This document shows positions 8,605-35,309 of a DNA stretch of 60,454 bases, piece after piece. The stretch is taken from contig MGQQ01000159.1 of the NCBI GenBank assembly GCA_001798855.1, forward strand, positions 1 to 60,454, in the 5' to 3' direction. This stretch comes from Deltaproteobacteria bacterium RBG_16_49_23 (lineage in GTDB: Bacteria; Desulfobacterota; BSN033; UBA1163). Made by a program: the position numbers and the translations under genes. Below the pieces are notes generated by a model, which was given only the letters and a program-made list of their open reading frames with translations, was not told the origin of the DNA and searched no databases. Every line of letters begins with the position of its first letter. Within the stretch, counting starts at the first letter, position 1.

Positions 8605-9546
8605 TTACGCTGTAAGGGTTGTTCCGGCTTCTCCTTTGACCGCCTTCAGAAGGTTTTCTGGAGAGGTAATAATCGCCTTTTCACCCCCTCCTTCGAGAAA
8701 CTGGATGATGGCTTCGATCTTTGGTCTCATTGAACCGGGCTTGAAATGTCCTTCTTTTAGATATTTCTTTATCTCAGAGAGGGAAACACGACGGAGAGGC
8801 TTTTGATCCACCTGGCCAAAGTTCAAATAGACAGCATCGACAGACGTCGAAATGATAAAGGTGTCTGCCCCAAGGTTTCTTGCCAGGAGTGAGGACCCCA
8901 TATCTTTGTCAATCACGGCTTCAACGCCTTCCAGGTCGCCCTGCTCATTCCGGATCACGGGGATCCCGCCTCCACCGGCAGCGATAACAATATAGCCGTC
9001 TTCCACTAGTAACCTGACCACATCCAGTTCGACGATCTCTATCGGGATGGGGGAAGGAACGACACGTCTGAAACCCCGACCGGCATCTTCCATGACTTGC
9101 CACCCCGCTTCTTTCCTGTGGAGGGTCGCTTCTTCCTCCGACATGAAGGAGCCGATCGGTTTTGAGGGATGTTGAAAGGACGGGTCGTCCCTGTCCACAA
9201 TAACCTTGGTCACCACTGCAGCCACCTTCTTCTCGACGCTTAACTTACGGAACTCGTTCAGAAGGGCCATTTGAATCATATACCCGATTGCCCCCTGTGT
9301 GTCAGCTCCACAGATGTCGAGAGGGATCAGGGGGAGTTCATGCCGGGCAAGCTCCCCTCTTCTGTAAATAAAACCTACCTGGGGACCATTCCCATGAGTG
9401 ATGATCAATCTCTGGCCCTCAGCAATCAGTTCAGCAATAAATTTCGAGGTTTCCTGGATCGCTTCATACTGGGAGGAGAGCGCGATGTGGTCCTTATCCT
9501 TGATTAAAGAGTTTCCGCCAATGGCGAGAACCGCTAAAGAATTCAT
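8605..9546 (-). CDS. arcC: Carbamate kinase
   Basis: 313 residues, full length for the family. Converts carbamoyl phosphate plus ADP to ATP, CO2 and ammonia. Amino-acid-kinase fold motifs: LAIGGNSLIK at the N-terminus, THGNGPQVG, the PLDICGADTQGAIGYMIQ helix, AGGGGIPV, VIDKDMGSSLLARNLGAD and the C-terminal GSMRPKIEA. Lies at the end of a minus-strand set with pyrB-like, hydantoinase and carbamoyltransferase genes, so it is well placed to harvest carbamoyl phosphate as ATP. This corresponds to yqeA in the E. coli xdh/yge cluster. It may instead run in reverse to supply carbamoyl phosphate. Confidence 0.94.
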   Translation of the reverse strand: MNSLAVLAIGGNSLIKDKDHIALSSQYEAIQETSKFIAELIAEGQRLIITHGNGPQVGFIYRRGELARHELPLIPLDICGADTQGAIGYMIQMALLNEFRKLSVEKKVAAVVTKVIVDRDDPSFQHPSKPIGSFMSEEEATLHRKEAGWQVMEDAGRGFRRVVPSPIPIEIVELDVVRLLVEDGYIVIAAGGGGIPVIRNEQGDLEGVEAVIDKDMGSSLLARNLGADTFIISTSVDAVYLNFGQVDQKPLRRVSLSEIKKYLKEGHFKPGSMRPKIEAIIQFLEGGGEKAIITSPENLLKAVKGEAGTTLTA

Positions 9547-9657
9547 AGGTTGACCTATTCTAATCGGTGTAGTTTCACCCTCACCCCACCCTCTCCCCTG
9601 CCTTCGCCGAAACGCTTCGTGCAGGCAGGCATCAAGGGAGAGGGTAATTTGTTGTTT

Positions 9658-10587
9658 TTATCGTTTGCCGAAAATCATGGCCAGCAGGGCCATCCTGATA
9701 AAGACTCCATTCCTTATCTGTCTGAAATAGGCAGCCCCAGGATAAGTATCCACATCAGGGTGAATCTCATCCACCCTTGGGAAGGGATGTAGTATTGTAA
9801 TTTTCTTCTTCAAGCTCTTGAGGAACCCTCCATCTATGATCAGGCTTCCTTTGACCCTCTCATACTCAGAAAGGTCAGCAAATCTCTCTTTTTGAACCCG
9901 TGTCATATAGACCAAATCGCTTGCATTGGCTGCCTCCATCATGTCCTCGGTTTCAATGATTTTTATTCCCTTCTCTTTTAAATTCGCAGTAATCTCCTCC
10001 GGCATTCGAAGGAGACCCGGTGAGACAAAATAGAGTTTGGCCCGGAAAAGGGATAAAACCTCAACCAAGGCATGAACCGTTCTCCCGTGCTTAAGATCCC
10101 CCACCAACGAAACCGTCAGGTTTTTAAGGGTCCCCAGTTCTTTAGAGATGGTATAGACATCGAGGAGCGCCTGCGTGGGATGCTGACCTGCCCCGTCTCC
10201 AGCATTGATCACAGGGACCGGCGTTGCATCTGCAGCTTCTCTTGCTGACCAAGTTCGCGGATGGCGCAGCACAATCACATCGGCATATTGAGAGACGGTC
10301 CTTGTGGTATCGACCAGAGTTTCACCCTTTGCGACCGATGAACTCTCCACCGAGCCCATGCTGATCACACCGCCCCCGAGTCTCTGCATGGCCGCCTCAA
10401 AAGAGAGCCGAGTGCGCGTGCTGGGTTCGAAAAAAAGAGTCGCAAGAAGTTTTCCCTTGAGCAGGGAGAAACTGCCTTTCTTTTTTAACTCTTTTTCAAA
10501 CGCTGATGCCACCTTCATGATCGCTTCGACATCTTTCTTCGAAAATTGATTTCCATGAAGAATATCTTTTCCTTTAAGACTGGCCAT
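9658..10587 (-). CDS. pyrB: Aspartate carbamoyltransferase, catalytic chain
   Basis: 309 residues. Transfers the carbamoyl group to aspartate. The carbamoyl-phosphate loop FFEPSTRTRLSFE, the HPTQALLD motif, SVLR-type RHPR and the C-terminal HPFPRVDEIHPDVDT and YFRQ are all present and of aspartate type. AAGGAGG lies 7 nt before the ATG. No pyrI regulatory chain and no pyrC follow. The neighbours are carbamate kinase and a hydantoinase, so the enzyme could serve pyrimidine synthesis or, reversed, release carbamoyl phosphate from N-carbamoyl-aspartate. The first is the safer call. Confidence 0.92.
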   Translation of the reverse strand: MASLKGKDILHGNQFSKKDVEAIMKVASAFEKELKKKGSFSLLKGKLLATLFFEPSTRTRLSFEAAMQRLGGGVISMGSVESSSVAKGETLVDTTRTVSQYADVIVLRHPRTWSAREAADATPVPVINAGDGAGQHPTQALLDVYTISKELGTLKNLTVSLVGDLKHGRTVHALVEVLSLFRAKLYFVSPGLLRMPEEITANLKEKGIKIIETEDMMEAANASDLVYMTRVQKERFADLSEYERVKGSLIIDGGFLKSLKKKITILHPFPRVDEIHPDVDTYPGAAYFRQIRNGVFIRMALLAMIFGKR

Positions 10588-10738
10588 TTTAAACCTCCTT
10601 ATAATTTACGCTTAACGGTAAAGCTCAAACCGGATGCCGAAACAAGTTCGGCATGACAACAACGTCATTCTCAACTCGTTTCAGAATCTTAATCCCTCAT
10701 TTGATATTCATTTGTCATTTGAACTTTGAAATTTGGAT

Positions 10739-12103
10739 TTATAACTTTCCCTTAATAATCTTTGTCGGCTGAAACTTCCCGTCTCCGGGTCTGGCTCTGG
10801 TTTCTCCATTCTCGACCAATATTTTTCCCCTTTGCATGACCAAAACAGGCTTCCCTTTGCATCTTCTTCCTTCATAAAGCGTGTAATGAGCTCCGGAGTG
10901 CTGGGTCTGCTGCTGGAGCATATGGAACTTTTCCGGGTCGAAAATAAATAAATCAGCGTCCGACCCTTGCCGAATCGTCCCCTTCTTCGGGTAGAGGCCA
11001 AAGATCCTGGCAGGATTCTCCGAAAAGAGTTGAACGCACCGCTCCGGTTTAATCTTTCCTTTATTGACACCTTCGTCGTAAGTGACAGTGAACATGGTTT
11101 CTGTCTGGGGTGAGCCAAAGGGAGATTCGAAGAAAGGATCCCCCAACTTCTTCGCCTTGGGTGCATGGTCGCTTGCCACGGTATCGACAATTCCTTCCTG
11201 AATGGCCTTCCACAGGGCAACCCGGTCTTTCTCGGTTCGAAGTGGAGGCCCGATTTTAGCCAGGGGACCCAACCTCTGAAGCTTGGTGTCGGTCATCGTC
11301 AGATATTGAGGGCATGTCTCAACATAGACGGCCTGCCCCTCTGCCTTTGCCTGTTGAAGAGGGAGAACGCCCTTTGCCGTGCTGAGATGGACAATATAGA
11401 GCGGACAGCGTGTAACGGCTGCAATCGTTATGGCTCTGAAAATTGCCTCAGCTTCCAGGCGGTCGGGCCTCGTCATCAGAAAAACTCTCCTCTGATCCTC
11501 TCCCCTCTTCAAAGAACGGTCCTCCAGATAGTCGGTCACCAGACCATTCTCTGCGTGGACCATGGCCATGCCGCCACACTCTGCGATCAGGTCCATAGCG
11601 GCAGCAAGATGATAATCATCCGTCATCCATTTCAGTTTCGCATAGGCCATGAACATCTTGAACGAAGAGACGCCGAGATCGAAGGCCCTCGGGATTTCTT
11701 CAATTTGAGAGGCAGGATCGAACAATGTCCCGTGGATTCCAAAATCGAGACACGATTTCTTTGAGCCCTCTTCCTGATACTGCTTGATTGTATCGATCAG
11801 CTTCATTCCGGGTTTCGCATAGGCAAAATGGATAAGGGTTGTCACCCCTCCATGGGCTGCTGTCAGGGAAAGACCTCCCATATCATCTTCATAAACGGGA
11901 TGGACATGAACATCGATTACGCCCGGCATCACATATTTACCCGAGGCATCGATGATCCGGCCCGCCTCCTCCTTTTTTAATCCAGGCTCGACCCTGGCAA
12001 TCTTTTCTCCCTTTACCGCAACATCAGCCTTGCGGATTCCCGAACCTGAAACAACCAGGCCCTTCTGAAACAGAATGTCATATTTCTTTTCCATACTCCT
12101 CAC
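10739..12103 (-). CDS. hyuA: Hydantoinase / dihydropyrimidinase-family amidohydrolase
   Basis: 454 residues. Hydrolyses cyclic amides (hydantoins, dihydropyrimidines, or ureide rings derived from purines). The binuclear metal site is visible: HVHP near residue 68, the carbamylated lysine in SSFKMFMAY, the histidines in MVHAENG and IVHLST, and the aspartate of ASDHAP. A C-terminal dihydropyrimidinase-type extension ends in FQPTKIIKGKL. The start may be GTG 12103 or ATG 12094; GAGGAG overlaps this point, so I keep the longer frame. It begins just after the small FeS subunit of a molybdenum hydroxylase (3-nt gap), so the two are probably cotranscribed. Matches HyuA in the E. coli xdh/yge cluster; dihydroorotase activity is an alternative. 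Confidence 0.9.
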   Translation of the reverse strand: MRSMEKKYDILFQKGLVVSGSGIRKADVAVKGEKIARVEPGLKKEEAGRIIDASGKYVMPGVIDVHVHPVYEDDMGGLSLTAAHGGVTTLIHFAYAKPGMKLIDTIKQYQEEGSKKSCLDFGIHGTLFDPASQIEEIPRAFDLGVSSFKMFMAYAKLKWMTDDYHLAAAMDLIAECGGMAMVHAENGLVTDYLEDRSLKRGEDQRRVFLMTRPDRLEAEAIFRAITIAAVTRCPLYIVHLSTAKGVLPLQQAKAEGQAVYVETCPQYLTMTDTKLQRLGPLAKIGPPLRTEKDRVALWKAIQEGIVDTVASDHAPKAKKLGDPFFESPFGSPQTETMFTVTYDEGVNKGKIKPERCVQLFSENPARIFGLYPKKGTIRQGSDADLFIFDPEKFHMLQQQTQHSGAHYTLYEGRRCKGKPVLVMQRGKILVENGETRARPGDGKFQPTKIIKGKL

Positions 12104-12106
12104 CCT

Positions 12107-12580
12107 TTACGCCTTACCCTTTACGGAACTATCCTTAATAGCTTTTACAATCTGTGTGTATCCTGTGCAACGGCATAAGTTGCCCCGTATATACTCCCTA
12201 ATCTCCCCTTCTGTGGGTTGAGGGTTTTCGTCCAGGAGCGCCTTTCCCGTCAGAATCAACCCGGGCGTGCAAAACCCGCATTGAACAGCTCCGTGATTCA
12301 GAAAAGATTCCTGAACCGGATGGAGCCTCCCATCAGATCCGGAAATGCCCTCAATGGTGACCACATCGCTTCCATCCACAGCCATGGCCAAGGTCAGGCA
12401 TGCGAGAATCGGTTCGCCATCGAGGAGAACCGTGCAGGAACCGCACTCTCCGATACCGCACCCATATTTTGCCCCTGTCAATTCCAGATGATCCCGCAAG
12501 ACATTGAGAAGGAGCTCATTGGAAGCAACAAAAAGTTCCCTCTTCACGCCGTTAACAGTCAATGTGATCTGCTTTTTCAA
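12107..12580 (-). CDS. Molybdenum hydroxylase, small 2x[2Fe-2S] subunit (set 1)
   Basis: 157 residues with the CoxS/XdhC layout. A plant-type ferredoxin domain carries CGIGECGSC-x11-C (about residues 41–63). The C-terminal all-helical [2Fe-2S] domain carries CGFC and CRCTGY (about 102–145). It passes electrons from the Mo site to FAD. The start is TTG, with GGAG 7 nt upstream. Its cognate FAD and large subunits (13932–17187) lie upstream but are separated from it by an ornithine-type carbamoyltransferase gene and repeats, which is an unusual split. Confidence 0.93.
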   Translation of the reverse strand: MKKQITLTVNGVKRELFVASNELLLNVLRDHLELTGAKYGCGIGECGSCTVLLDGEPILACLTLAMAVDGSDVVTIEGISGSDGRLHPVQESFLNHGAVQCGFCTPGLILTGKALLDENPQPTEGEIREYIRGNLCRCTGYTQIVKAIKDSSVKGKA

Positions 12581-12589
12581 TTTTGTCTC

Positions 12590-12745
12590 CGCCCCCTCTC
12601 CCCTCGAGGGAATGGGGAAGGGTAAGGGGAATTGTACTCTTACACCCCTCTTTGGAAAAGAGGGGCAAGTGGAGATTTTCCAAGCATAATTTTAAAATCC
12701 CCCTTTGCCAAAGGGGGATAAAAACACTGGAAACTGAGAAGTTAA
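12590..12745. repeat. Interspersed repeat between hydroxylase and carbamoyltransferase genes
   Basis: Contains the CCCCTCTTTGGAAAAGAGGGG hairpin and the CCCCCTTTGCCAAAGGGGGAT arm found in the other 'CCCCTTTG' repeats of the window. No gene. Confidence 0.6.
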
Positions 12746-12751
12746 GGGGAA

Positions 12752-13684
12752 TTACATAATTAGCGCCATCAACGCCTTCTGGGTATGCAATCTGTTCTCC
12801 GCCTGATCGAAGATAACGCTGTTCTTTGAATCGGCCACCTCGTCTGTCACCTCTTCTCCCCGGTGGGCCGGAAGACAGTGCATAAAAATATAGTCCTCTT
12901 TGGCTCCCTTGACCAACTTTGAATTGACCTGATAGGGTTTTAAAATCTTCACCCTCTCTGCATGCTCCTTCTCTTTTCCCATGCTCGCCCAGACATCGGT
13001 ATAGATGATATCCGCTCCCTTGACCGCTTCCTTCGGGTCATCCGTCACCCTTACTTCTGAACCATTTTTTCTTGCCTCCTTCTTTCCCTGTGCCACCACT
13101 TTCGAATCGGGTTCATACCCCTTCGGACAGGCAAGGACGATATTCATCCCCACCTTTGAGCAGCCATCGATCAGGGAATGGGCAACATTATTGCCGTCCC
13201 CCACATAGGCCAGTTTCAGACCGTCGAGCCGCCCCTTCTTCTCATAGACGGTGAACAGATCGGCAAGCCCCTGGCACGGGTGGGAGAAATCGGAGAGCCC
13301 ATTGATCACAGGGACTTTTGAATTCTGAATGAGGTCGAGTATGGTCTGATGGGAAAAGACCCTCGCCATGATCCCATTGACATAACGCGAAAGGGTTCTG
13401 GCTGTGTCTCCGATCGTTTCCCCCCGTCCTAATTGCAGATCGCCGGCGCTCAGGTTGAGCGCATAACCGCCGAGCTGCCACATCCCCACCTCAAAAGAAA
13501 CACGGGTCCGGGTGGACGGTTTCTCAAAGATCATCGCCAGGGTTTTCCCCTTGAGCAGGGGATGCTCCTGTCCTCTTAGAAGCTGGAACTTCAACAGCTC
13601 CGATGCCTTGAGAATCTGCTCGATCTCTTCCCGCGTGAGATGATCGAGGCTCGCCAGAGATTTCCCTTTCATATGAACAGCCAT
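12752..13684 (-). CDS. argF: Ornithine-type carbamoyltransferase
   Basis: 310 residues. Carries the carbamoyl-phosphate motif STRTRVSFE, the HPCQGLADL loop, the ornithine-type signature [11 protein letters not shown] and the C-terminal [11 protein letters not shown]. These together point to ornithine carbamoyltransferase (citrulline formation or arginine catabolism) rather than aspartate type. AAGGAG lies 9 nt before the ATG. It sits between two halves of a molybdenum hydroxylase set and near carbamate kinase, so in this operon it may act on a ureide rather than citrulline. The sequence alone supports the ornithine call. Confidence 0.87.
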
Positions 13685-13931: not shown

Positions 13932-14807
13932 TTAAACGGCCCTTTTCCACGCAAGGTTGATTGCATCTCGAACAAGTATTTTCGACACCTCTTTTCGATA
14001 CCAAGCTGTTGAACGCATATCATTAATGGGTTTAATTTCTTCAGAAACCTGGAGGCTCGCCTTTTCAACAAGATCCTCTTTAAACTTCCTACCCATCAAG
14101 ATTCTTTCTGCCCCTTTTGTCCTCAGAGGGATCTCTGCCACTGAACCCATAACCATTTTACAATCTCGACAAAAATCTTCTTCTCGCTCTATAACCACTG
14201 CCACACTGACTTTGGCTAAATCGGCAGAAACCCTGCCCAGTTTCACAAAAGCGCTCCCCGTGTTAGCTTTCGGCTCGGGGACCTGGATCTCAACCATCAA
14301 TTCCTTTCGGGTTAGGAGGGTTTGTCCAGGTCCGCTAAAAAAGGCCTCAAGGGGAATAGTCCTTTCTTTATCTCCCTCGATCATCCTGACCTCTGCCCCA
14401 AAGGCAATCAGGGGTGGGGCGGAATCGGCTGCAGGGGATCCATGACAAAGGTTCCCCCCGAGAGTCCCCATCGTCTTGATCTGTATGGAGGTCACAGCCT
14501 TCGCTGCCTCATGGAGCGCCGTATAGCGTTTTTGGATGAATCCATTTCTCTCAATTTGCCGGAAGGTGGTGAGAACGCCGATGCGCAGGCCAGGCTCGAT
14601 GATCAGGTACCTGAGCGCAGGAATCTTTGAGAGGTTGATGATTGCCTCCGGACGGGCCCTGCCCATCTTCATCCGGACGAGGAGATCCGTCCCTCCGGCC
14701 ATGAACTTGGCATTCCCCCGGTAGGCGGCCATCCACTTCACCGCTTCTCCAATGGTATGAGGTTCGACGAACTCAAACTCCTGGGAAAGGATGTGGGAAT
14801 TAATCAT
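13932..14807 (-). CDS. Molybdenum hydroxylase FAD subunit (set 1)
   Basis: 291 residues, CoxM/XdhB type. FAD-binding motifs AGGTDLLVRMK (about 37–47) and TMGTLGGNLCHGSPAADSAP (about 112–131) are intact, and the CO-dehydrogenase-flavoprotein C-terminal domain ends the protein. Carries electrons to NAD or another acceptor. Its start overlaps the end of the large subunit upstream by 8 nt, so the two are translationally coupled. Confidence 0.93.
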   Translation of the reverse strand: MINSHILSQEFEFVEPHTIGEAVKWMAAYRGNAKFMAGGTDLLVRMKMGRARPEAIINLSKIPALRYLIIEPGLRIGVLTTFRQIERNGFIQKRYTALHEAAKAVTSIQIKTMGTLGGNLCHGSPAADSAPPLIAFGAEVRMIEGDKERTIPLEAFFSGPGQTLLTRKELMVEIQVPEPKANTGSAFVKLGRVSADLAKVSVAVVIEREEDFCRDCKMVMGSVAEIPLRTKGAERILMGRKFKEDLVEKASLQVSEEIKPINDMRSTAWYRKEVSKILVRDAINLAWKRAV

Positions 14808-17154
14808 TTCGCTTTTCCATCCCTTTCAGCGCCTCGAGAACACGCTCAGGGGTAATAGGAATTTTCTTGAAGCGGACTCCGATGGCGTTGTAAACCGCAT
14901 TGGCAAGGGCAGCAGCCACAGGATTCAGAGCCGCCTCACCAATCCCCTTGGCCCCGAATGGCCCTGTCGGTTCGTAAGTGTCGGTAAAATGGACTTCTAT
15001 GTTGTCCATTTCCGGCAAATCGTTTGCAGTCAACATCTTGAAGTCGGTGATCCAGCCGCCGCTGGTCAGTTCCCCGGATTCCTCATCATATTGCGTATCC
15101 TCCAGCAGGGCGTAACCTAATCCGCGATAGAGGCCTCCGAACAGCTGCCCTCGGGCCAGATCCGGATTGACCACCTGTCCCACGTCCGCATAGGCAAGGG
15201 CCTTTGTTGGCTTGATGACACCGGTCTCCGTGTTCACCTCGACCTCAATGAAGTAGGCCATGAAACAGGGAGGACAACTAACCTGGCGAAGGCTGTCGAC
15301 GGCAGCGATTGTACCCCAATTATTGATCTGAGCTGTCTTGGCCACCTCTCCCACAGATATTCTCCTGCCCTGAACACCGTCGACATAGACCATTCCCTGG
15401 CCAGCCTCTTCATCCACCTCCATTTTTAAGGAATGGGGAGGTGCCTGCAGAATCCTTGAGGCAAACTCCAACAGTTTTGTTTTTGCTTGTCCGGTTACCT
15501 TATGGAGAGCGCCCCCTCCGCAATAGATGCCCCTTGTGGCATGCGTGGCGACATCGTACACCGTTGTCCGAGTATCGACAGGTGAGATGCCAACTTTGTC
15601 GAGAGGGACCTTAAGCTCCTCTGCAACGATCTTAGCCAGTGCATCGAGGGTACCTCCTCCGAGGTCCATGAGGGCCGTCAGGAAATCGACTGAACCATCC
15701 TCATTGATCTTGACGATGCTTCCCGAATAATCAATGACCTCTCCAGCCATTGGGGCCCCAGCTCCGGAGGTGTGGAACCCTCTGGCCATGCCAATGCCCC
15801 GTCGAATGACCCCTTCCTTCTTCTCTCGCTTAAATTTATCCTTCCAGCCAACCAGTTCAGCTCCCTTCCGGAGCATCTCTTCCACGCCGCAACTCCGGAT
15901 GATGGACTTAACCGTGGGTCCCTGCCCCCAGAAGGTCTCCCCCAAGCCCACATAGTTTTTGAGACGGAGATCGATGGGATCTATCTCCAGCCTCTCGGCT
16001 AGCATATCCATCATGGATTCGACGGCAAAGGTCACCTGGGGGTTCCCAAAGCCCTGCATCGCACAGGCAGGGACTTTATTCGTATAGACTGCCCTGCCCT
16101 CAAACTTGAGATGGGGAAGGCGGTAAAGGGAAACCCACCACCCGGCCATGCATCCGAGAAGAGGATAGGCCTGGGTATTGTGGGCACCAATATCAATAAT
16201 CACCTTCATATGGCCGGCAACAAGCGTCCCATCTCTCTTCGCCCCCAGTTTTAGTTGAATCCAGGAAGGATATTTGCAATGATCGTACATGTCCTCTTCC
16301 CGGCTCGAAACAAGCTTCACGGGTCTTCTTGCTTTTAAGGCAAGAGCCACTCCGATGGGGACAACAGAATTCATCTGGATGCTCGACCCGAAGGATCCCC
16401 CCAAGGCCACCTTTTTGACATTGACCCTGCTTAGAGGGATATTGAAGATCTCCCCCAGAAGCTGTCGAACGTTGTGGATGGTCTGTGTAGTGGTCCACAC
16501 CGTGATACCCCCGTCCGCTTCCGGTTGGCAGACAACTGACTTTGGCTCCATCTGCGCATGGTAGACCCGGCCAGTCTCAAATGTCTCTTCGAAAATGATC
16601 TCTGCCTCTTTGAATCCCTTCTCAATATCTCCCTCTACAATCTCCCGGGAGGCGGCGATGTTGTTTTTGACCTTGATCTCGTCCTGTCCGAAAAGGATTG
16701 TACGGTGAAGGAGAGGACTTCCTTCTTTCATGGCCTCAAAGGGGTCAAAGACCGCAGGGAGCCTCTCATACTCCACGCGGACGAGGCTCAGAGCCTGTTC
16801 CGCCAGATCTTCTGTCTCGGCGGCAACTGCGGCAATGGCCTCCCCCACATGCCGCGGCGTGTGGGTCAGTACCTGCCTGTCCTTGAAGGTCTTGGACGGG
16901 ATGGTGACGATCCGCTCCGCGTATCTCAGATTTGGAACATCTCTCGGAGTAATACAGACAGCCCCGAGCTTCTCGGCTTCGCGTGTGTCGATTGTTTTGA
17001 TCGTTGCATGGGGAAAAGAACTCCGGAGGACACGGGCATGAAACATCCGGGGTAGCACGACGTCAGTCGTGTAGATCTCATGGCCCGTCACTTTTGAGAT
17101 TCCATCCTTCCGAATGGATGTTTTGCCAATAGCATGATATTGAGATTTTTCCAT
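14800..17154 (-). CDS. Molybdenum hydroxylase large subunit (set 1), purine-site residues altered
   Basis: Start set at ATG 17154, with AGGAAAAGGAA just upstream; an in-frame start at 17187 is weaker. About 784 residues of xanthine dehydrogenase/aldehyde oxidase type: N-terminal hammerhead domain (DVVLPRMFHARVLRSSFPHA), then the Mo-binding domains. The catalytic Glu motif FGAKGIGEAA is intact. The usual GGGFGGKE is instead GGSFGSSIQ, and the usual RGFG is QGFG (CAG codon at 16054–16056). In xanthine oxidoreductase those positions (Glu802, Arg880) hold the purine; aldehyde oxidases lack both. This subunit therefore probably acts on something other than xanthine. Shares an operon with a second, purine-type set. 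Confidence 0.93.
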   Translation of the reverse strand: MEKSQYHAIGKTSIRKDGISKVTGHEIYTTDVVLPRMFHARVLRSSFPHATIKTIDTREAEKLGAVCITPRDVPNLRYAERIVTIPSKTFKDRQVLTHTPRHVGEAIAAVAAETEDLAEQALSLVRVEYERLPAVFDPFEAMKEGSPLLHRTILFGQDEIKVKNNIAASREIVEGDIEKGFKEAEIIFEETFETGRVYHAQMEPKSVVCQPEADGGITVWTTTQTIHNVRQLLGEIFNIPLSRVNVKKVALGGSFGSSIQMNSVVPIGVALALKARRPVKLVSSREEDMYDHCKYPSWIQLKLGAKRDGTLVAGHMKVIIDIGAHNTQAYPLLGCMAGWWVSLYRLPHLKFEGRAVYTNKVPACAMQGFGNPQVTFAVESMMDMLAERLEIDPIDLRLKNYVGLGETFWGQGPTVKSIIRSCGVEEMLRKGAELVGWKDKFKREKKEGVIRRGIGMARGFHTSGAGAPMAGEVIDYSGSIVKINEDGSVDFLTALMDLGGGTLDALAKIVAEELKVPLDKVGISPVDTRTTVYDVATHATRGIYCGGGALHKVTGQAKTKLLEFASRILQAPPHSLKMEVDEEAGQGMVYVDGVQGRRISVGEVAKTAQINNWGTIAAVDSLRQVSCPPCFMAYFIEVEVNTETGVIKPTKALAYADVGQVVNPDLARGQLFGGLYRGLGYALLEDTQYDEESGELTSGGWITDFKMLTANDLPEMDNIEVHFTDTYEPTGPFGAKGIGEAALNPVAAALANAVYNAIGVRFKKIPITPERVLEALKGMEKRND

Positions 17155-17197
17155 TTCCTTTTCCTGCAACTGTTTAACAAACCTCAAATTCCGATTC

Positions 17198-26851: not shown

Positions 26852-26855
26852 TGTT

Positions 26856-26883
26856 ATATTTTAACAATCAATTTCCAAAATAT
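26856..26883. promoter_or_regulatory. Candidate operator near iclR start
   Basis: ATATTTT (26856–26862) and AAAATAT (26877–26883) form an inverted repeat with a 14-nt spacer, 5 bases upstream of the iclR ATG. Spacing of about two helical turns suits an IclR dimer. The site is small and AT-rich, so the assignment is tentative. Confidence 0.35.
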
Positions 26884-26890
26884 GAAAACA

Positions 26891-26919
26891 CCCTTATCAG
26901 AGCCAAACGGTTTTGTCAA
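26891..26919 (-). promoter_or_regulatory. Sigma70-like promoter for iclR–liv–xdh operon
   Basis: On the minus strand TTGACA (26914–26919) is followed after 17 nt by TAAGGG (26891–26896), 40 bases ahead of the iclR start. The -35 is consensus; the -10 is weaker, as expected of a regulated promoter. Confidence 0.55.
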
Positions 26920-26975
26920 GAAAAAAATGGGGAAAATAGTTGAGAATACGATTCTCTCCAGAAAAGGAATGCCTA

Positions 26976-27004
26976 TTGACAGGGAGTGGGTATTTTTCTA
27001 TAAT
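26976..27004 (+). promoter_or_regulatory. Consensus sigma70 promoter for the TRAP/yge arm
   Basis: TTGACA (26976–26981), 17 nt, TATAAT (26999–27004): a full match to the consensus in both hexamers and spacing. It faces dctP at 27196, giving a 5' leader of about 185 nt. It diverges from the iclR promoter by 57 bases between -35 hexamers. Confidence 0.75.
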
Positions 27005-27195
27005 TCAGACCGCTTCAAGGAAAGGACCATTCTCACGATCGGATCATCTCCACATCCCCATTTTCGAAAATGGTTCAGGACAGAAAGAATGTTAAGGCTA
27101 TCTTTATCGGAGAAAACGGCATTGGGAAGGAGGTGAACCTGTCTTTCCCGATAGAGGGTTGGGATAAACGAATAAATTTTTTAAGGAGGTTAAAA

Positions 27196-28263: not shown

Positions 28264-28276
28264 GGTCTCTGGATCG

Positions 28277-28795
28277 ATGAATCTCGTTTCTGGACGAAAA
28301 GGATACCTGTCATGGGTTGAGAAACTCGCCTGGATCGTGGAAAGGATTGCCGCTGTTCCCTGTATGATCGCCATAGGGGGGATGACGGTGATCGTCATCC
28401 TCGGTGTCATCTTCCGCTATGTTCTCGGAAGCCCCCTCGGATGGACAGAGGAAGCAGCCCGTTACCTGATGATCTGGGCTGCTTCCCTCGCTGTGAGCAT
28501 GGGGATTATGAAGGGAGAACATGTCGGGATCAACCTGATGGTCAACGCCTTTTCTCCGAAAATCCGGCGGTGGATGGCCATCTCGGTCCATCTGGCCATC
28601 CTGGCCTTTCTATGGGTCCTGACGCAGCGCGGTTACCTCATGGCCATCAACGGAAGGAATCAGTTTTCTCCCCTCCTCGGCGTCACCATGGTCTGGTCCC
28701 TGGCTGCGATTCCCATTGCCGGCCTCCTGGCCATGCTGCAAACCGTTTTCCTCATTCTTATAATGCTTTCACCGTCAAAGGAGTCATCGAAATAG
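28277..28795 (+). CDS. dctQ: TRAP transporter small permease
   Basis: 172 residues, four membrane segments, with the DctQ motif GSPLGWTEEAARYLMIWAAS. GAGG precedes the start. Joins DctM to form the permease. The gap to dctP is 13 bases. Confidence 0.9.
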   Translation: MNLVSGRKGYLSWVEKLAWIVERIAAVPCMIAIGGMTVIVILGVIFRYVLGSPLGWTEEAARYLMIWAASLAVSMGIMKGEHVGINLMVNAFSPKIRRWMAISVHLAILAFLWVLTQRGYLMAINGRNQFSPLLGVTMVWSLAAIPIAGLLAMLQTVFLILIMLSPSKESSK

Positions 28796-28804
28796 AGGGA
28801 TGAG

Positions 28805-30088
28805 ATGCTCTTGTTCATAGGGATTGTTTTTCTGGGACTCCTGATGCTCGGAACGCCGATCGGGTTTGCTCTTGGAATCGCGGCCCTCGCGGTCTTCGTC
28901 AAAATGGATGTCTCCGTCCTTTTCAACATGGTCCCCCAGCGCTTCTTTGCCGGCCTGGACATGTTCACGCTGATGGCCATGCCCTTCTTTATCCTCGCCG
29001 GCGAGATGATGAACAAGGCAGGGATTACACATCGGCTCGTTCAATTTGCCAATGTCCTGGTAGGACATCTGAGGGGCGGATTGGCCCATGCCAATATTGT
29101 CGCCAGTGTTTTCTTTGCCGGACTGACCGGAGCAGCAGTCTCGGACACGGCGGCCATCGGCACCATGCTCATCCCGGCCATGGTGGAGGATGGCTATGAG
29201 CTCGATTACAGCGCGGCCGTCACCGCCTCCTCATCCATCATCGGACCGACGATCCCCCCAAGTAATATGATGGTCATCTACGGATCCATGATGAATGTAT
29301 CCATCGCCGGACTCTTCGCCACCGGAATCCTGACCGGGTTGCTCCTTGCATTCCTGCTGATGATCATGGCTGCCTATTTTGCGGCCAAAAGGAACTATCC
29401 CAAAAAGCCCCGGAGTTCCCTACGGGGAGTCATCAGGTCGACCAGGGAAGCGATCATCCCCCTTTTGATGCCGATCATCATCCTTGGAGGAATCCTTACC
29501 GGAATCTTCACGCCGACAGAGGCAGCTGCAGTCGCTGTCGGATATGCGGCCGTGATCGGTCTATTCGTCTTAAAAACCCTTAAGCTAAAGGATTTCCCGG
29601 AGCTCTTTTATAAAACAGCCATGACTACAGGCGTTGTATTTTTAATTATCGGAACAGCAAACATCTGCGGGTGGATTCTGGCCTCTGAAAAAATACCCGA
29701 AGCCGTGGCTGCAGCCATGGTGTCGATCAGTGATGACAAGACGATTCTGCTGCTCATGATCCTGCTCCTCATGGGCATCGTGGGCTGTTTCATGGACATC
29801 GCTGCCGCCCTGATCATTTTAGGCCCCATCCTTCACCCCCTTGCGGTGAGCCACGGCGTCCATCCTCTTCATTTCGGAATCATCATGGTCTTTTCACTCA
29901 ATATCGCCCTGACGACACCGCCCGTGGGAGCCTGCCTCTTTGTAGCATGCGGGATCACCAAACTGAGTCTGGAGCAACTCTCTAAGGCGATATGGCCTTT
30001 TATCATCATGGAATTTATTACCCTAATCATCATCACCTTTGTCCCTGATATTCCTATGGCCATCCCTAAACTGCTTGGATATTATTAG
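28805..30088 (+). CDS. dctM: TRAP transporter large permease
   Basis: 427 residues, about twelve membrane segments. DctM motifs: GTPIGFALG, MPFFILAGEMMNKAG, VFFAGLTGAAVSDTAAIG and SSIIGPTIPPSN. Sodium- or proton-driven import of the DctP-bound acid. The start is 9 bases after dctQ. Confidence 0.93.
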   Translation: MLLFIGIVFLGLLMLGTPIGFALGIAALAVFVKMDVSVLFNMVPQRFFAGLDMFTLMAMPFFILAGEMMNKAGITHRLVQFANVLVGHLRGGLAHANIVASVFFAGLTGAAVSDTAAIGTMLIPAMVEDGYELDYSAAVTASSSIIGPTIPPSNMMVIYGSMMNVSIAGLFATGILTGLLLAFLLMIMAAYFAAKRNYPKKPRSSLRGVIRSTREAIIPLLMPIIILGGILTGIFTPTEAAAVAVGYAAVIGLFVLKTLKLKDFPELFYKTAMTTGVVFLIIGTANICGWILASEKIPEAVAAAMVSISDDKTILLLMILLLMGIVGCFMDIAAALIILGPILHPLAVSHGVHPLHFGIIMVFSLNIALTTPPVGACLFVACGITKLSLEQLSKAIWPFIIMEFITLIIITFVPDIPMAIPKLLGYY

Positions 30089-30163
30089 GTAAAAGATTTC
30101 ATTAAATCCTCATTGATCATGCTGATGGAACACGTCCAATGAAGAAAGGCGCAGGCATAACGA

Positions 30164-31348
30164 ATGATCCTTGCAGATAAAATCTATGAGCTTGCTGAAA
30201 AATATAAGGATGACACAGCGGAGAATCTCTCGAAACTGGTCAAGATCAAATCCTTCAGCCGGGAAGAGGAAGCGGTCCAGCAGGAACTCAAACGCCAGAT
30301 GGAACCGTTGAAGCTGGACGAATTGAAGATCGATGGACTGGGGAATGTCATCGGTCGCATAGGCCATGGGAAAAAGATTTTGGCCATCGATGCCCATATG
30401 GATACGGTCGATATCGGGAATATGGACAACTGGGAGTTTAGCCCCTTCTCGGGAAAGATCGAAGGGGGATATGTTCTTGGAAGGGGAACAGTGGATCAAA
30501 AAGGTGGTGCGGCCAGCTTTGTTACGACAGCCAGAATTCTTAAGGAGCTCGGATTTGATAAGGATTTGACCGTTTATTTTGTGGGCAGCGTCATGGAAGA
30601 GGATTGTGACGGCCTCTGCTGGAAATATATTATCGAAGAAGATAGGATTAAGCCGGACATTGTGATCTGCACCGAACCTACCAATGGCAATATCTGCCGT
30701 GGCCATAGGGGAAGAATGGAGATTGAGGTGACCTTTCGCGGGGTCTCAGCCCACGGGTCGGCTCCGGAAAGGGGAAAAAATGCCATTTACATGGCCTCCA
30801 AAGCCTGCCTCGATATCAAAGCCCTTAATGAACGTTTGAGAAGCGATCCCTTTCTTGGAAAGGGCTCTGTAACGATAACCGATTTTTTTTCCAGGAGCCC
30901 CTCTTTATGTGCGGTGGCGGATTACGCAAAAATCCATGTCGACCGGAGATTGACCTGGGGAGAGACAAAAGAGTCTGCTCTGGCTGAAATCGAAGAGATC
31001 GTAAAAGATGTGAGAGCAGAGGTTCAGATCCTTCAATATGATGAAAGAGCCTATACCGGGCTTCGATACGGGATGGAGAAATATTACCCCACCTGGAAGC
31101 TCCCGCCGGATCACGCCGCTGTAAAAACAGGGGTTGCGGTCTATGAATCTCTGTTCGGGAGCTCACCCATGGTGGATAAATGGACATTTTCCACCAATGC
31201 CGTCACGATTACTGGCATATATGGCATCCCCACAATCGGATTCGGTCCGGGGGATGAGACCCTGGCCCATGCTCCCAATGAGAGAGTGGTTGTCAAAGAC
31301 CTCGTCAACGCATCCGCTTTTTACGCACTCTATGCCTATCAACTATAA
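30164..31348 (+). CDS. ygeY: YgeY-like M20 peptidase/deacylase family hydrolase
   Basis: 394 residues. Metal-dependent amide hydrolase of the M20 family. Zinc-site residues appear in order: IDAHMDTVDIGN (His, then Asp), GRGTVDQKGG (Asp), MEEDCDG (catalytic and metal Glu pair), CTEPTNG (Glu) and HAPNERV (His). The dimerisation lid lies in the middle (EIEVTFRGVSAHGSAPERGKNAI). Its neighbour YgeW and the wider set identify it with YgeY of the E. coli cluster. It probably removes an acyl, formyl or carbamoyl group from a small amino acid derivative; the substrate is inferred. Confidence 0.82.
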   Translation: MILADKIYELAEKYKDDTAENLSKLVKIKSFSREEEAVQQELKRQMEPLKLDELKIDGLGNVIGRIGHGKKILAIDAHMDTVDIGNMDNWEFSPFSGKIEGGYVLGRGTVDQKGGAASFVTTARILKELGFDKDLTVYFVGSVMEEDCDGLCWKYIIEEDRIKPDIVICTEPTNGNICRGHRGRMEIEVTFRGVSAHGSAPERGKNAIYMASKACLDIKALNERLRSDPFLGKGSVTITDFFSRSPSLCAVADYAKIHVDRRLTWGETKESALAEIEEIVKDVRAEVQILQYDERAYTGLRYGMEKYYPTWKLPPDHAAVKTGVAVYESLFGSSPMVDKWTFSTNAVTITGIYGIPTIGFGPGDETLAHAPNERVVVKDLVNASAFYALYAYQL

Positions 31349-31368
31349 ATCATCTCGGAAGGATACCT

Positions 31369-32556
31369 ATGGACTATCAGACTATCATAAATTCCCTAAA
31401 AAAATTGGAGGCCAACCTATTCCAGACCGATTTTTTGCTCACCTGGGAAAAATCCGAAGACCAAATCAAACAGATATTATATGTGGCCGAGGCATTGCGA
31501 TACTTTCATCGCCATCATATCTCTTCTCGATGTTTTGACTCCGGACTTGCCGTATCCATTTTCAGAGACAAATCAACCCGGACACGGTTCTCTTTTTCAT
31601 CCGCCGCCAATTTCGTAGGCCTTGGAGTTCAGGAGCTGGACGAGGAAAAGTCCCAAATGACCCACGGTGAAACCCTGCGGGAGACGGCCAATATGATCTC
31701 CTTCTTTACGGAAGTGATCGGGATCCGGGATGATATTTACCTCGGGACCGGTCACGCCTACATGAAGGCCGTGGCCGAAGCCCTGGATGAGGGATTCCAG
31801 GCGGGCGTCCTAAATCAGCGGCCCGGTCTTATCAATCTTCAATGTGACATCGACCATCCCACCCAGTCCATGGCGGACCTGCTTCATCTTAAAACCCACT
31901 TCGGTTCCCTTGAAAACCTCAGGGGGAAGAAGCTTGCCATGACCTGGGCCTATTCACCGAGCTATGGGAAACCCCTCTCCGTGCCCCAGGGAATCATCGG
32001 CCTGATGACCCGTTTCGGAATGAATGTTTCCCTCGCCTATCCTGAGGGTTATCACCTGATCCCCGAAGTGACAGGCCTTGCAAAAAAGAATGCCGCTCAA
32101 AGCGGCGGCTCCTTTACAATCGTTGATTCCATGGATGAGGCATTCAAAGACGCCGATATGGTCTACCCCAAGAGCTGGGCGCCGTATACGGTGATGGAAA
32201 AACGGACCGAGTTATTTAGAAATAACGACGACCAGGGTCTTAAAGCGCTTGAGAAAGAATGTCTGGCCAAGAATGCACGGTTTAAAAACTGGGAATGCAC
32301 CGAAGAAAAAATGAAACTGACCCGAAAAGGACAGGCCCTCTACATGCACTGCCTTCCCGCAGATATTTCAAATGTCTCCTGCAAACAGGGGGAGGTCCAG
32401 GAGACCGTTTTTGAGAAATATCGCATCGCCACTTATAAAGAAGCGGGATTCAAGCCGTATATTATCGCATCGATGATGATCAACGCCCGGTTTAAAGATC
32501 CGGTCCGACTGCTGGAGGAGATGAAAAAAAGAAACATCAAACGGGTGGGCTTTTAA
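31369..32556 (+). CDS. ygeW: YgeW-like knotted carbamoyltransferase
   Basis: 395 residues, longer than ornithine or aspartate carbamoyltransferase. The carbamoyl-phosphate loop DKSTRTRFSFSSA and the YgeW-type ELDEEKSQMTHGETLRETANMISF are present, as are HPTQSMADLLHL, YPKSWAPY (the extended loop of the knotted group) and the C-terminal MHCLPADISNVSCKQGEV. In urate catabolism the family is thought to phosphorolyse a ureido amino acid to give carbamoyl phosphate. GGAAGG precedes ATG 31369. With arcC it would yield ATP. Third carbamoyltransferase of the locus. Confidence 0.88.
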   Translation: MDYQTIINSLKKLEANLFQTDFLLTWEKSEDQIKQILYVAEALRYFHRHHISSRCFDSGLAVSIFRDKSTRTRFSFSSAANFVGLGVQELDEEKSQMTHGETLRETANMISFFTEVIGIRDDIYLGTGHAYMKAVAEALDEGFQAGVLNQRPGLINLQCDIDHPTQSMADLLHLKTHFGSLENLRGKKLAMTWAYSPSYGKPLSVPQGIIGLMTRFGMNVSLAYPEGYHLIPEVTGLAKKNAAQSGGSFTIVDSMDEAFKDADMVYPKSWAPYTVMEKRTELFRNNDDQGLKALEKECLAKNARFKNWECTEEKMKLTRKGQALYMHCLPADISNVSCKQGEVQETVFEKYRIATYKEAGFKPYIIASMMINARFKDPVRLLEEMKKRNIKRVGF

Positions 32557-32567
32557 TTTTAGGGAAC

Positions 32568-33830
32568 ATGGAACAGGTCAAAAATCTAAAATGTCTTCTG
32601 TGTGGTCATGAATATGGGCCGGATGAAGTCCTCTACGTTTGCCCTAACCACGGCACGGAGGGCATTCTCGATGTTCAGTATGATTATGATCTCATCACTT
32701 CGAAATTCTCCCGCACTGACCTGAAGGGGAAAGGAGAAAGCAGCCTCTGGCGCTATAAACCCCTCTTGCCTGTCAAATCCAACACCCCTGTCCCGCCCTT
32801 AACAGTCGGGTGGACGCCCCTTTATCCAGCCCCCCGCCTTGCTAAAACATTAGGACTAGAACACCTCTGGGTAAAAGATGATTGCCGTCAGCCCACAGCC
32901 TCCTTCAAAGATCGGGCCAGCCTGATCGCCATTGTCAAAGCCCTTGAAGTCAATGCAGAAGTGATCACTACCGCCAGTACTGGCAATGCGGCAGCAGCGC
33001 TTTCGGGTCTGTGCGCCAGTATTGGCATGCCCAATGTGATCTTTGTGCCTGCCTCCGCACCTGAAGCAAAAATCGCTCAATTGATGGTCTTCGGCTCAAC
33101 GGTATTATTGATCGAAGGGACCTATGATGATGCCTTCGATCTCTGTCTGGAATCCGCTCAGGTATATGGCTGGTACATCCGGAATACCGGATATAATCCT
33201 TACATGACCGAAGGGAAGAAGACCGCTCTCTATGAGATCTATGAACAGTTGGAGTGGGAAGGCCCCGATGCTATCTTTGTTCCGGTTGGAGATGGTTGCA
33301 TCATTGGTGGACTCCATAAAGGCCTGAAAGATCTGTTCGCATTGGGCTGGATAAAAAAAATGCCACGGCTGATCGGAGTGCAGGCATCCGGCTCTGCGGC
33401 CATGTATCATGCCTGGAAACAAGAGATGGACCCTGTCCAAATCAAACCCATCAAGGCTTCTACGATCGCCGACAGCATGGCTTCGGGTCTGCCTCGTGAT
33501 CGCATCAAGGCCATGCGGGCTGTCCGGGAGACCGGAGGAGCCTTTTTGGCTGTGACGGATGAAGAGATTCTTCAGGCCATTCCCGCCTTAGCCCGCGGGT
33601 GCGGGGTGTTTGCGGAACCGGCGGGGGCCTCTTCCTTCGCAGGATTGGTCAAAGCCGTCCAAACAGGTCTGGTCAGACCTGAAGAGCGGATTGTCATCCT
33701 TGCCACAGGCAGCGGCCTCAAGGATATTCCTGCGGCGATGCAAACCGTAGGGAAACCGAAACGCATCCGGGCCAGCCTGAAAGCCGTTGAGGCCGCTCTG
33801 GACGATAACCTTTTCTTGCTTAAAAGATAA
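32568..33830 (+). CDS. Threonine-synthase-like fold-type II PLP enzyme
   Basis: 420 residues. Zinc-ribbon-like start with C9, C12, C25 and H28 (CLLCGHEY...VCPNHG), as in class II threonine synthases. PLP-binding Lys114 lies in PTASFKDR, the asparagine loop is ASTGNAAAAL and the phosphate loop is VPVGDGCIIGGLHKG. No homoserine-phosphate pathway genes are nearby; instead it follows ygeW by 11 bases. Such an enzyme could carry out beta-elimination or replacement on the amino acid released by YgeW, taking the place of YgeX (diaminopropionate ammonia-lyase), which is missing. Threonine synthase proper is the alternative. Confidence 0.82.
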   Translation: MEQVKNLKCLLCGHEYGPDEVLYVCPNHGTEGILDVQYDYDLITSKFSRTDLKGKGESSLWRYKPLLPVKSNTPVPPLTVGWTPLYPAPRLAKTLGLEHLWVKDDCRQPTASFKDRASLIAIVKALEVNAEVITTASTGNAAAALSGLCASIGMPNVIFVPASAPEAKIAQLMVFGSTVLLIEGTYDDAFDLCLESAQVYGWYIRNTGYNPYMTEGKKTALYEIYEQLEWEGPDAIFVPVGDGCIIGGLHKGLKDLFALGWIKKMPRLIGVQASGSAAMYHAWKQEMDPVQIKPIKASTIADSMASGLPRDRIKAMRAVRETGGAFLAVTDEEILQAIPALARGCGVFAEPAGASSFAGLVKAVQTGLVRPEERIVILATGSGLKDIPAAMQTVGKPKRIRASLKAVEAALDDNLFLLKR

Positions 33831-33842
33831 GGGGGATATTCA

Positions 33843-35309
33843 ATGATCGACCTCACGATCAATAAAGAAGAGTTGAAACGAACAGTCCATCGGGCCAGGG
33901 AGAGAAAGATTATCATCCCGACCTTTCGACAGCAGAGAAACCCGGAATTGATCCCTCAAAAAATAAGGGAAAAACTGAGAGAGGTTGAGCTCTGGGAGGT
34001 CCATCCCTATAATCTCTTTCGAATCACCTGGAAGAATGAACCAATCGACCGGAACGGAGGATTCGGGGAGGTCAATACGATGGAAATCCCATCTGAAATC
34101 TCAGGAGTCGATGCCCGGATCATTGCTCTGATTGGAAAATGGTTCCCTACGGGTTCTCACAAAGTGGGAGCCACTTTCGGATGTCTGGTTCCCAGGCTCG
34201 TTACCGGACAGTTCGACCCCACCCATCAAAAAGCGGTCTGGCCCTCTACCGGCAATTTCTGCCGGGGCGGGTCTTATAATGCGGCTCTATTGGCATGCGA
34301 GTCGATTGCCATTTTGCCGGAAGAGATGAGCCGGGAACGGTTTGACTGGTTATCCAAGATGGCAGGCGAGGTCATCACCACACCGGGTGGTGAGAGCAAT
34401 GTGAAAGAGATATTCGACAAATGCTGGGAACTGAAAAAGACGCGACAAGACATTTTCATCTTCAATCAATTTGAGGAATTTGGAAACCATCTCTGGCACT
34501 ATGAAATTACAGGCCATGCGATTGAAGAGGTTCTTCGCAAGAGGATGTCTCCCGATGATCGATTGGCCGGCTTCATCTCTCAGACCGGATCAGCCGGCAC
34601 CTTGGGAGCCGGGGACTATTTGAAAGAGGTCTTTCCGGGGAGTCAAATCGTTGCGGGCGAGGCCCTCCAGTGCCCCACCCTTCTGCTCTGCGGTTACGGA
34701 AACCATCGCATTGAAGGGATTGGTGACAAACACATCCCCTGGATCCATAATGTTAAAAATACGGACATGGTCATTGCTGTGGATGATCGTGCCTGCATGA
34801 ATCTTCTCCGGCTCTTCAATGAGCCTGCGGGCTGGGACTTTTTAAAAAAACAGGGAGTGAAGGAGGATGTCATTTCGAGGCTTCCCCTTCTTGGAATATC
34901 GAGCATTGGCAATCTATTATGTGCTATCAAATTCGCCAAATATTATGAATTGACCAGGCATGACCTCGTCGTGACGGTATGGACGGATTCCATGGACCTC
35001 TATGGGTCTCGATTGAAGGAGTTACGGGAGGTCCATGGGTCTTATTCGGAGACGGAGGCGGTTAAAGATTACCACCATTATCTCATGGGGATGTCCACCG
35101 ATCATATGCTCGAACTAAGCTACTATGATAAACGTCGGATTCATAACTTGAAGTATTTTACCTGGATCGAACAGCAGGGCAAGAATCTTTCGGAATTGGA
35201 GGCGCAGTGGTATGATGCCCCGGGCTACTGGGGGCGAATCCACGGACAGGTTCAGAAAATTGATGACCTCATTGACCAATTCAATGAACGAACTGGGTTG
35301 TTGGGGTAA
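33843..35309 (+). CDS. Large fold-type II PLP enzyme, function unknown
   Basis: 488 residues, longer than cysteine synthase. The PLP lysine (K107) is in FPTGSHKVGA, the asparagine loop is WPSTGNFCRGGSYNAALL and the glycine loop is QTGSAGTLGAGDYL. An N-terminal ~75 residues, rich in charged residues, and a C-terminal ~100 residues flank the core. Belongs to an unnamed tryptophan-synthase-beta-like group of PLP proteins. GGGGGA precedes the ATG, 12 bases after the threonine-synthase-like gene, so the two are cotranscribed. Its place at the end of the YgeY–YgeW set suggests an amino acid lyase or ammonia-lyase step. Confidence 0.75.
   Translation: MIDLTINKEELKRTVHRARERKIIIPTFRQQRNPELIPQKIREKLREVELWEVHPYNLFRITWKNEPIDRNGGFGEVNTMEIPSEISGVDARIIALIGKWFPTGSHKVGATFGCLVPRLVTGQFDPTHQKAVWPSTGNFCRGGSYNAALLACESIAILPEEMSRERFDWLSKMAGEVITTPGGESNVKEIFDKCWELKKTRQDIFIFNQFEEFGNHLWHYEITGHAIEEVLRKRMSPDDRLAGFISQTGSAGTLGAGDYLKEVFPGSQIVAGEALQCPTLLLCGYGNHRIEGIGDKHIPWIHNVKNTDMVIAVDDRACMNLLRLFNEPAGWDFLKKQGVKEDVISRLPLLGISSIGNLLCAIKFAKYYELTRHDLVVTVWTDSMDLYGSRLKELREVHGSYSETEAVKDYHHYLMGMSTDHMLELSYYDKRRIHNLKYFTWIEQQGKNLSELEAQWYDAPGYWGRIHGQVQKIDDLIDQFNERTGLLG

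Follow-up and report, generated by a model that had tools for sequence, protein, structure and literature searches.

Three neighbouring gene sets rather than one purine-catabolic island in Deltaproteobacteria bacterium RBG_16_49_23, including a probable dihydroorotase of hydantoinase descent

The window analysed in this work is contig C159 (MGQQ01000159.1; 60,454 nucleotides) of Deltaproteobacteria bacterium RBG_16_49_23, whose genome (hereafter G000) has a size of 3.83 Mb and is 93% complete. Between positions 8605 and 35309 the window carries two divergent gene arms, which the first-pass annotation took for a single island of anaerobic purine or ureide catabolism. The left arm includes, in order of transcription, genes for an IclR-family regulator, LivK, LivH, LivM, LivG, LivF, XdhB1, XdhC1, XdhA1, XdhA2, XdhB2, ornithine carbamoyltransferase (OTCase), XdhC2, a hydantoinase-like cyclic amidohydrolase, aspartate carbamoyltransferase (ATCase) and carbamate kinase, with pyrE located 510 bp beyond the kinase, which ends the arm. 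The right arm consists of the P, Q and M genes of a tripartite ATP-independent periplasmic (TRAP) transporter, followed by genes for YgeY, YgeW, a ThrC-like pyridoxal phosphate (PLP) enzyme and P488, a further PLP enzyme of 488 aa. Gene calls were based on full-length open reading frames (ORFs) with Pfam and NCBIfam profile matches and curated cut-offs, and all the genes named in the first-pass annotation proved to be real and full-length, with strong matches. Their assignment to one system did not stand, as the stretch is a mosaic of three neighbouring gene sets, here called modules A (8605-13684), B (13932-26851) and C (27070-35309). Modularity was assessed by comparison with 12 other genomes of the same family (13 including G000), and the wider set of 21 genomes comprised G000 and 20 relatives. 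The GC contents of modules A, B and C are 0.50, 0.51 and 0.50, so the composition is uninformative.

Module A, encoded on the minus strand, contains genes for carbamate kinase (8605-9546; TIGR00746, 383.5 bits with a cut-off of 358), ATCase (pyrB, 9658-10587; TIGR00670, 371 vs 237), the amidohydrolase (10739-12103; TIGR02033, 406.5 vs 393) and OTCase (argF, 12752-13684; TIGR00658, 443 vs 281), and judging by its gene content appears to be an arginine and pyrimidine biosynthesis block with a carbamate kinase. Searches of G000 with YgeW, OTCase and ATCase each recovered just the three carbamoyltransferases of the window, its OTCase and ATCase being the only ones found in the genome. The location of the sole argF and pyrB found within the stretch argues against a purely catabolic assignment. 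The ATCase query had a 76-87% identical match in all 12 other family genomes when the 21 genomes were searched. In 12 of the 13 family genomes argF and pyrB share a contig, their starts being separated by 2.3-3.3 kb; in G215 they are split over two contigs. The amidohydrolase, OTCase and ATCase, which the first-pass annotation counted among the catabolic genes, thus represent the family's argF-'pyrC'-pyrB block, which is also retained in relatives without YgeW. A copy of the carbamate kinase adjoins pyrB in seven further genomes of the genus with 81-89% identity; G396 has no kinase beside pyrB, and in G140 the contig ends there.

The ATCase of the window possesses the motifs STRT, HPTQ, HPFP and RVQ, the third being one residue off the set given in Table 1 of PMC4016543 (STRT, HPTQ, HP[LG]P and RxQ). 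Compared with that table, the motif RxQ is genuine, which rules out a pseudo-ATCase/ureidoglycine carbamoyltransferase identity for 9658-10587 and speaks against the proposed role of this enzyme in purine breakdown. The module resembles the Rubrobacter pseudo-ATCase with allantoinase, as presented in PMC4016543, in having a carbamoyltransferase beside a cyclic amidohydrolase and a carbamate kinase, but differs in the true RxQ motif and in that its ATCase is the only one found in the genome. Two full-length large subunits of carbamoyl phosphate synthetase (CPSase) are encoded elsewhere in G000 (contigs C106 and C62; L206 and L207), the same being the case in several relatives. Contig C91 of G140 (L176) harbors a second set of OTCase, carbamate kinase and ATCase-like genes, 48, 45 and 41% identical, together with a YgeV-like regulator and TRAP-like genes.

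The amidohydrolase is over the curated cut-off for D-hydantoinase/dihydropyrimidinase, is placed on the hydantoinase side of the tree and is under the cut-off for type I dihydroorotase (TIGR00857, 242.6 vs 279). It is the sole match in G000 both to itself (E<=1e-12) and to TIGR00857 (E<=1e-20). A hydantoinase-like gene adjoins pyrB in 12 of the 13 family genomes, and none of these 12 has a type I dihydroorotase over the cut-off. In the thirteenth, G192, the slot between argF and pyrB is occupied by a canonical dihydroorotase (429.7 bits vs the cut-off of 279), which was the only gene matched there by the hydantoinase query. The order argF-pyrC-pyrB in G192, with a type I enzyme, is the same as in the window, and OTCase and ATCase are each 79% identical; the differences are that the pyrC slot of the window holds a hydantoinase-lineage protein and that a 2Fe-2S gene intervenes. 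G258, which belongs to another family, has a 61% identical orthologue in the order pyrE-Hyd-pyrB-carB on one strand, the CPSase large subunit after pyrB scoring 829.5 vs 599 with NF003671 and 765.6, below 1027, with TIGR01369.

TIGR00857 was over its cut-off in 8 of the 21 genomes, with canonical enzymes in G192, G374, G393, G398, G167, G002 and G001, and in G258 with a protein that the tree places, loosely and on long branches, beside E. coli allantoinase. A second gene of G081 is barely under this cut-off (277.2), and further weaker matches are present in G215, G395 and G396. No type II dihydroorotase (TIGR00856) exceeded its cut-off in any of the 21 genomes, with no match at all in G000, and G337 (82% complete) possesses neither a canonical dihydroorotase nor a hydantoinase-like gene. 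The Fisher comparison on dihydroorotase (1/13 vs 7/8) ignores kinship and is descriptive only. A single clade (100/99) unites the 13 hydantoinase-like proteins and is separate from those of the dihydroorotases (100/100) and the HyuA proteins (100/99), which rules out that the window protein is a HyuA orthologue. In the alignment with dihydroorotases, the 13 proteins have neither the HxHxR[EV]P nor the NT motif of these enzymes and instead have HxHPVYxDDxG and [FY]AYA[KR]PGMKL in common. Since the gene lies amid pyrimidine biosynthesis genes and no other dihydroorotase candidate was found in G000, it is reasonable to suggest that the enzyme is probably a dihydroorotase of hydantoinase descent, and pyrC would then have been displaced in place by a hydantoinase-derived enzyme.

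Module C, on the plus strand, includes genes for the TRAP transporter components DctP, DctQ and DctM (27070-30088; Pfam matches, 73-92% identity in G007), the M20 hydrolase YgeY (30164-31348; TIGR03526 and NF009555 over cut-off, 526 vs 321), the knotted carbamoyltransferase YgeW (31369-32556; TIGR03316, 642 bits; NF005538, 686 vs 453), the ThrC-like PLP enzyme (32568-33830; NF006050, 307.7 vs 303) and P488, a CysK-like protein with a PALP match and a candidate beta-eliminating lyase (33843-35309). The true start of the TRAP receptor ORF at 27070 is probably the Met codon at 27196, from which a signal-peptide-like sequence begins as judged by eye. Intergenic gaps of only 9-75 bp make it likely that the module is one operon. 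YgeW was detected (E<=1e-60) in 7 of 395 genomes sampled from the phylum and, out of seven genomes tested within the genus, in G000 and G007, the latter having the YgeW set directly opposite argF, that is, module C without module B. In G045 the IclR gene is located 637 bp from the CDF-YchF-DisA genes, which in the window come after P488; the DNA of G045 matches window positions 26760-26927 and, after about 250 unmatched bases, positions 35419-35516, the intervening 8.5 kb (26928-35418, edges approximate) being absent. G319, with neither module B nor C, has CDF adjoining argF, and its matches to window positions 35415-35602 and to the argF start are about 140 bp apart. Module C looks like an inserted operon, a block of about 8 kb being missing at the same site in relatives.

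The two PLP enzymes of module C were followed through YgeW loci, found with a 7-sequence YgeW alignment against GTDB genomes; the best 80 of 583 confirmed places were kept, which biases the sample to close YgeW, and L018 and L019 were added, giving 82 loci. Typed by their ORFs, 19 loci contain P488, 19 the ThrC-like gene, 13 both and 25 either of them, while YgeX is present in 15 loci and in none together with P488 or the ThrC-like gene; P488 in L019 and YgeX in L148 were overlooked by ORF typing and recovered by tblastn. A best match to SsnA or YgfK occurs in 18 of the 25 P488/ThrC-like loci (Bacteroidales, Ozemobacter, Bdellovibrionales and others), so these loci look like urate clusters. 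Only 2 of the 15 YgeX loci, 14 of which we take to be gammaproteobacterial, show SsnA or YgfK, because the available flank often ends before those genes. No YgeX over the cut-off (NF006058, 276) was detected in 21 P488-bearing genomes, although G105 and the genome of L092 count among these with only a 41% identical P488 relative. Eight genomes had no P488 at the locus examined, which is all that the term P488-less covers here; YgeX was over the cut-off in five of them, and G418 has YgeX in two pieces, but four of the eight (L109, L148, L157 and L131) were picked as YgeX controls, which biases the Fisher tests. Among the other four, YgeX was over the cut-off at L112 and L117 and not at L086 and L087. 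The best NF006058 scores were 66 bits in G000, where the ThrC-like protein scored 65.7 and P488 was not among the matches listed, and 77 bits in G007. P488 and the ThrC-like enzyme seem, from these patterns of co-occurrence, to replace YgeX at the loci in question. As the figure legends of PMC12507026 assign YgeX by Pfam PF00291, both would be counted there as YgeX.

A separate thrC is present in G000 on contig C15 (TIGR00260, 314.6 bits) beside a homoserine-dehydrogenase-like ORF, which rules out the ThrC-like gene as the housekeeping threonine synthase and suggests that it encodes a paralogue of this enzyme. No NCBIfam model is over its cut-off for P488. The AlphaFold model of P488 (predicted local distance difference test score 86.9, predicted template modelling score 0.90) is closest in Foldseek to O-acetylserine sulfhydrylases, with 20-28% identity across the best 50 rows and no diaminopropionate ammonia-lyase among them. 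The 18 sequences of the P488 family alignment A2 are 484-500 aa in length, and Lys107 of P488, invariant in all 18, aligns with the PLP lysine in the SVKD motif of a cysteine synthase. P488 and the ThrC-like enzyme share the fold and the PLP-lysine region with known fold-type II enzymes (cysteine synthase, threonine synthase and diaminopropionate ammonia-lyase), from which P488 is set apart by the length of its family and the low identity to the best Foldseek rows. Beta-elimination from beta-substituted alanines would fit both the sequence and the model of P488. Relatives of P488 with 41-42% identity are also encoded on conjugative Rhizobium and Bosea plasmids (L215 and L216) near M20 hydrolases and TauE/SafE exporters, with RidA and TRAP genes also nearby on the Bosea plasmid.

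The E. coli reductive urate cluster is given in PMC12507026 as xdhD-ygfM-ygfK-ssnA-hyuA-ygeW-ygeX-ygeY-yqeA, and SsnA is named there as a marker of the pathway. The window shares with it YgeW and YgeY, both over curated cut-offs, the adjacent PLP enzymes and a carbamate kinase not far away, but its PLP enzymes are ThrC-like and CysK-like, it has TRAP uptake genes instead of a urate permease, and its hydantoinase belongs to another clade. The absence of xdhD, ygfK, ssnA and ygeX from the window, already pointed out in the first-pass annotation, was confirmed by the profile matches of the window genes, xdhD having no match among them and not having been searched for genome-wide. SsnA (TIGR03314) was over the cut-off in none of the 21 genomes, G007 included (best score in G000, 34 bits), and in 1 of 14 controls, E. 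coli being detected among them. YgfK (TIGR03315) likewise exceeded its cut-off in none of the 21 genomes, G000 and G007 included, in a search that did not cover the UacX and F420 alternatives; all the YgfK profile matches listed fall within positions 403-937 of 1012. As SsnA, YgfK and YgeX were not found over curated cut-offs in G000, opening of the urate ring by the known route is unsupported, and attack on the purine ring by that route has no counterpart in the genes found. In L092 (Desulfobacterales) and L019 (G105), TRAP genes (34-55% identical) accompany YgeY, YgeW and the 41% identical P488 relative, and tblastn at E<=1e-12 gave no match to Xdh, SsnA or YgfK across 18.6 and 20 kb, respectively. 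Such loci are best accounted for by import of a ureido amino acid that is already complete, and module C appears to correspond to the lower half of the reductive urate pathway, with an imported ureido amino acid as its input.

Module B, on the minus strand, is composed of the second molybdenum hydroxylase set, XdhB2 (13932-14807) and XdhA2 (14800-17187), the first set, XdhA1, XdhC1 and XdhB1 (17303-20993), the LivF, LivG, LivM, LivH and LivK genes of an ATP-binding cassette transporter (21020-26042; same order in G045 and G215) and the IclR-family regulator (26039-26851; Pfam IclR_C; 79% identical in G045 and 97% in G215, beside LivK), all assigned with Pfam. The second set is split by argF, as the 2Fe-2S subunit XdhC2 (12107-12580, minus strand; Fer2/Fer2_2) lies between argF and the amidohydrolase, which is also the case in G045, G279, G395, G397 and G007. 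Neither set reached an NCBIfam equivalog cut-off (XdhA1 529.5 and XdhA2 504.8 vs 780 for NF043082), so xanthine dehydrogenase identity is unsupported. Among solved structures, XdhA1 is closest in sequence to 4-hydroxybenzoyl-CoA reductase and nicotinate dehydrogenase, and XdhA2 to 4-hydroxybenzoyl-CoA reductase. The column of XdhD residue 606, in a gapped region of the alignment, holds Q in XdhA1 and K in XdhA2; in the RG[FY]G motif XdhA2 has Gln, like E. coli XdhD, where XdhA1 and E. coli XdhA have Arg.

Five of the 10 genus genomes (G000, G045, G215, G279 and G395) carry the Xdh genes of module B upstream of argF, with IclR and Liv genes beyond them in the first three and the stretches of G279 and G395 ending earlier. 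The Xdh genes are not present in the stretches read of G007, G140, G319 and G396, and the contig of G397 ends too soon. YgeW was not found in G045, G215 and G279, the three tested genomes with these Xdh genes besides G000, so this uptake and molybdenum hydroxylase set is separable from YgeW and is not tied to a ureide island as had been supposed. G007 contains an intact orphan XdhC2 (L018, 3479-3982) with no XdhA or XdhB within the 50.6 kb read, suggesting that module B was perhaps lost there. An IclR gene 65% identical to that of the window directly follows pyrB in G396 (L167, 11476-12249), module B not being beside argF. Elsewhere in the window, a c-di-GMP-I riboswitch match at 48723-48781 (minus strand) is barely above the threshold (36.4 vs 35 bits).

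Taken as a whole, the stretch is likely a mosaic in which module A serves biosynthesis with a hydantoinase-descended dihydroorotase, module B provides uptake and molybdenum hydroxylases, and module C is an inserted ureido-amino-acid operon. Several observations weigh against this interpretation. The amidohydrolase scores as a D-hydantoinase, and where the canonical dihydroorotases of the alignment have HxHxR[EV]P and NT, it has HVHPVYEDD and FAYAKPG; the HxHxR and NT motifs of dihydroorotases bind the carboxylate. The carbamate kinase next to pyrB might point to a catabolic role of module A, the family genomes are kin, so counts among them are not independent, and the source genome is incomplete. 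As regards YgeX, a contig of the P488 genome G399 has at its edge a 62-residue piece of what is probably a real YgeX; only 13 of the 25 loci have both PLP genes, which were sampled through YgeW neighbourhoods only; and identity among the ThrC-like proteins is just 37-47% beyond the genus, which makes their orthology unsure.

It could be argued that the amidohydrolase works for module C as a genuine hydantoinase, for instance by converting ureidomethyl-hydantoin to 2,3-diureidopropionate, the dihydroorotase being of an unrecognised type; its TIGR02033 score, its descent in the tree and the missing dihydroorotase motifs would all agree with that. The gene is, however, retained in family genomes without YgeW, is linked to pyrB, and in G258 to carB and pyrE as well, and is swapped for a canonical dihydroorotase in the same slot of G192, and we regard this explanation as rather improbable. 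Still less credence is given to module A running in reverse as a fermentation, with dihydroorotate or carbamoyl-aspartate split by ATCase phosphorolysis and ATP made by the kinase. The kinase does lie beside pyrB in 8 of 10 genus genomes, and YgeW is missing from at least four of these (G045, G215, G279 and G319). However, no other ATCase or OTCase was found, so a prototrophic organism would need these two for biosynthesis as well, and two full CPSase large subunits fit the anabolic direction. Equally unlikely is one purine or ureide island, in which molybdenum hydroxylases attack the purine, the hydantoinase opens the ring and three carbamoyltransferases and the kinase harvest ATP. All these protein families are indeed found within one 27 kb stretch, and uricolytic bacteria do have clustered genes for Xdh, HyuA, YgeW and YgeY. 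Against it, SsnA and YgfK were not found in G000, the hydantoinase is outside the HyuA clade, neither XdhA reaches the xanthine dehydrogenase equivalog cut-off or has Glu at the XdhD-606 column of the alignment, which is gapped in that region, and modules A, B and C come apart in relatives, which in part is what the first-pass annotation had said would refute it.

For the mosaic, we infer the following reactions, transporter substrate and coupling of modules. In module A the hydantoinase-descended enzyme would perform the dihydroorotase step between argF and pyrB. The substrate taken up by the TRAP transporter would be a ureido amino acid with a carboxylate, such as 2,3-diureidopropionate, albizziin or a similar compound, from which YgeW would split one ureido group with phosphate to give carbamoyl phosphate, while the second would be hydrolysed by YgeY. 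The beta-amino group would then be removed by P488 in place of YgeX, possibly together with the ThrC-like enzyme, yielding pyruvate and ammonia, and the carbamoyl phosphate would be used for ATP through carbamate kinase or pass to the ATCase and OTCase encoded nearby. Ureide catabolism yielding carbamoyl phosphate, as suggested in the first-pass annotation, is thus kept in part, since YgeY, YgeW, the TRAP genes and the PLP enzymes point to it with carbamate kinase nearby, whereas the single purine island is not. A broader scenario is more speculative and on balance doubtful: a new hydantoinase-born dihydroorotase with a different substrate loop displaced the canonical enzyme between argF and pyrB, ThrC-like/CysK-like enzymes other than YgeX end the reductive urate pathway in what we take to be Bacteroidota, Riflebacteria, Bdellovibrionota and Verrucomicrobiota, and in this genus they were taken over for ureido amino acids released by urate degraders. 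Among the open-access PMC papers listed in literature searches, neither a hydantoinase-type dihydroorotase nor ThrC-like/CysK-like stand-ins for YgeX are named in any title or abstract opening.

For this family, hydantoinase, OTCase and ATCase should not be read as purine catabolism from co-location alone. If the assignment of the amidohydrolase is right, the gap left in 12 genomes of one family with no type I or type II dihydroorotase over the cut-offs gets a testable candidate, and if that of the PLP enzymes is right, the likely finishing enzymes of anaerobic urate breakdown are named for lineages without YgeX. Under the broader scenario, the carbamoyl phosphate for making ATP, arginine and pyrimidines would come directly from external ureido groups.

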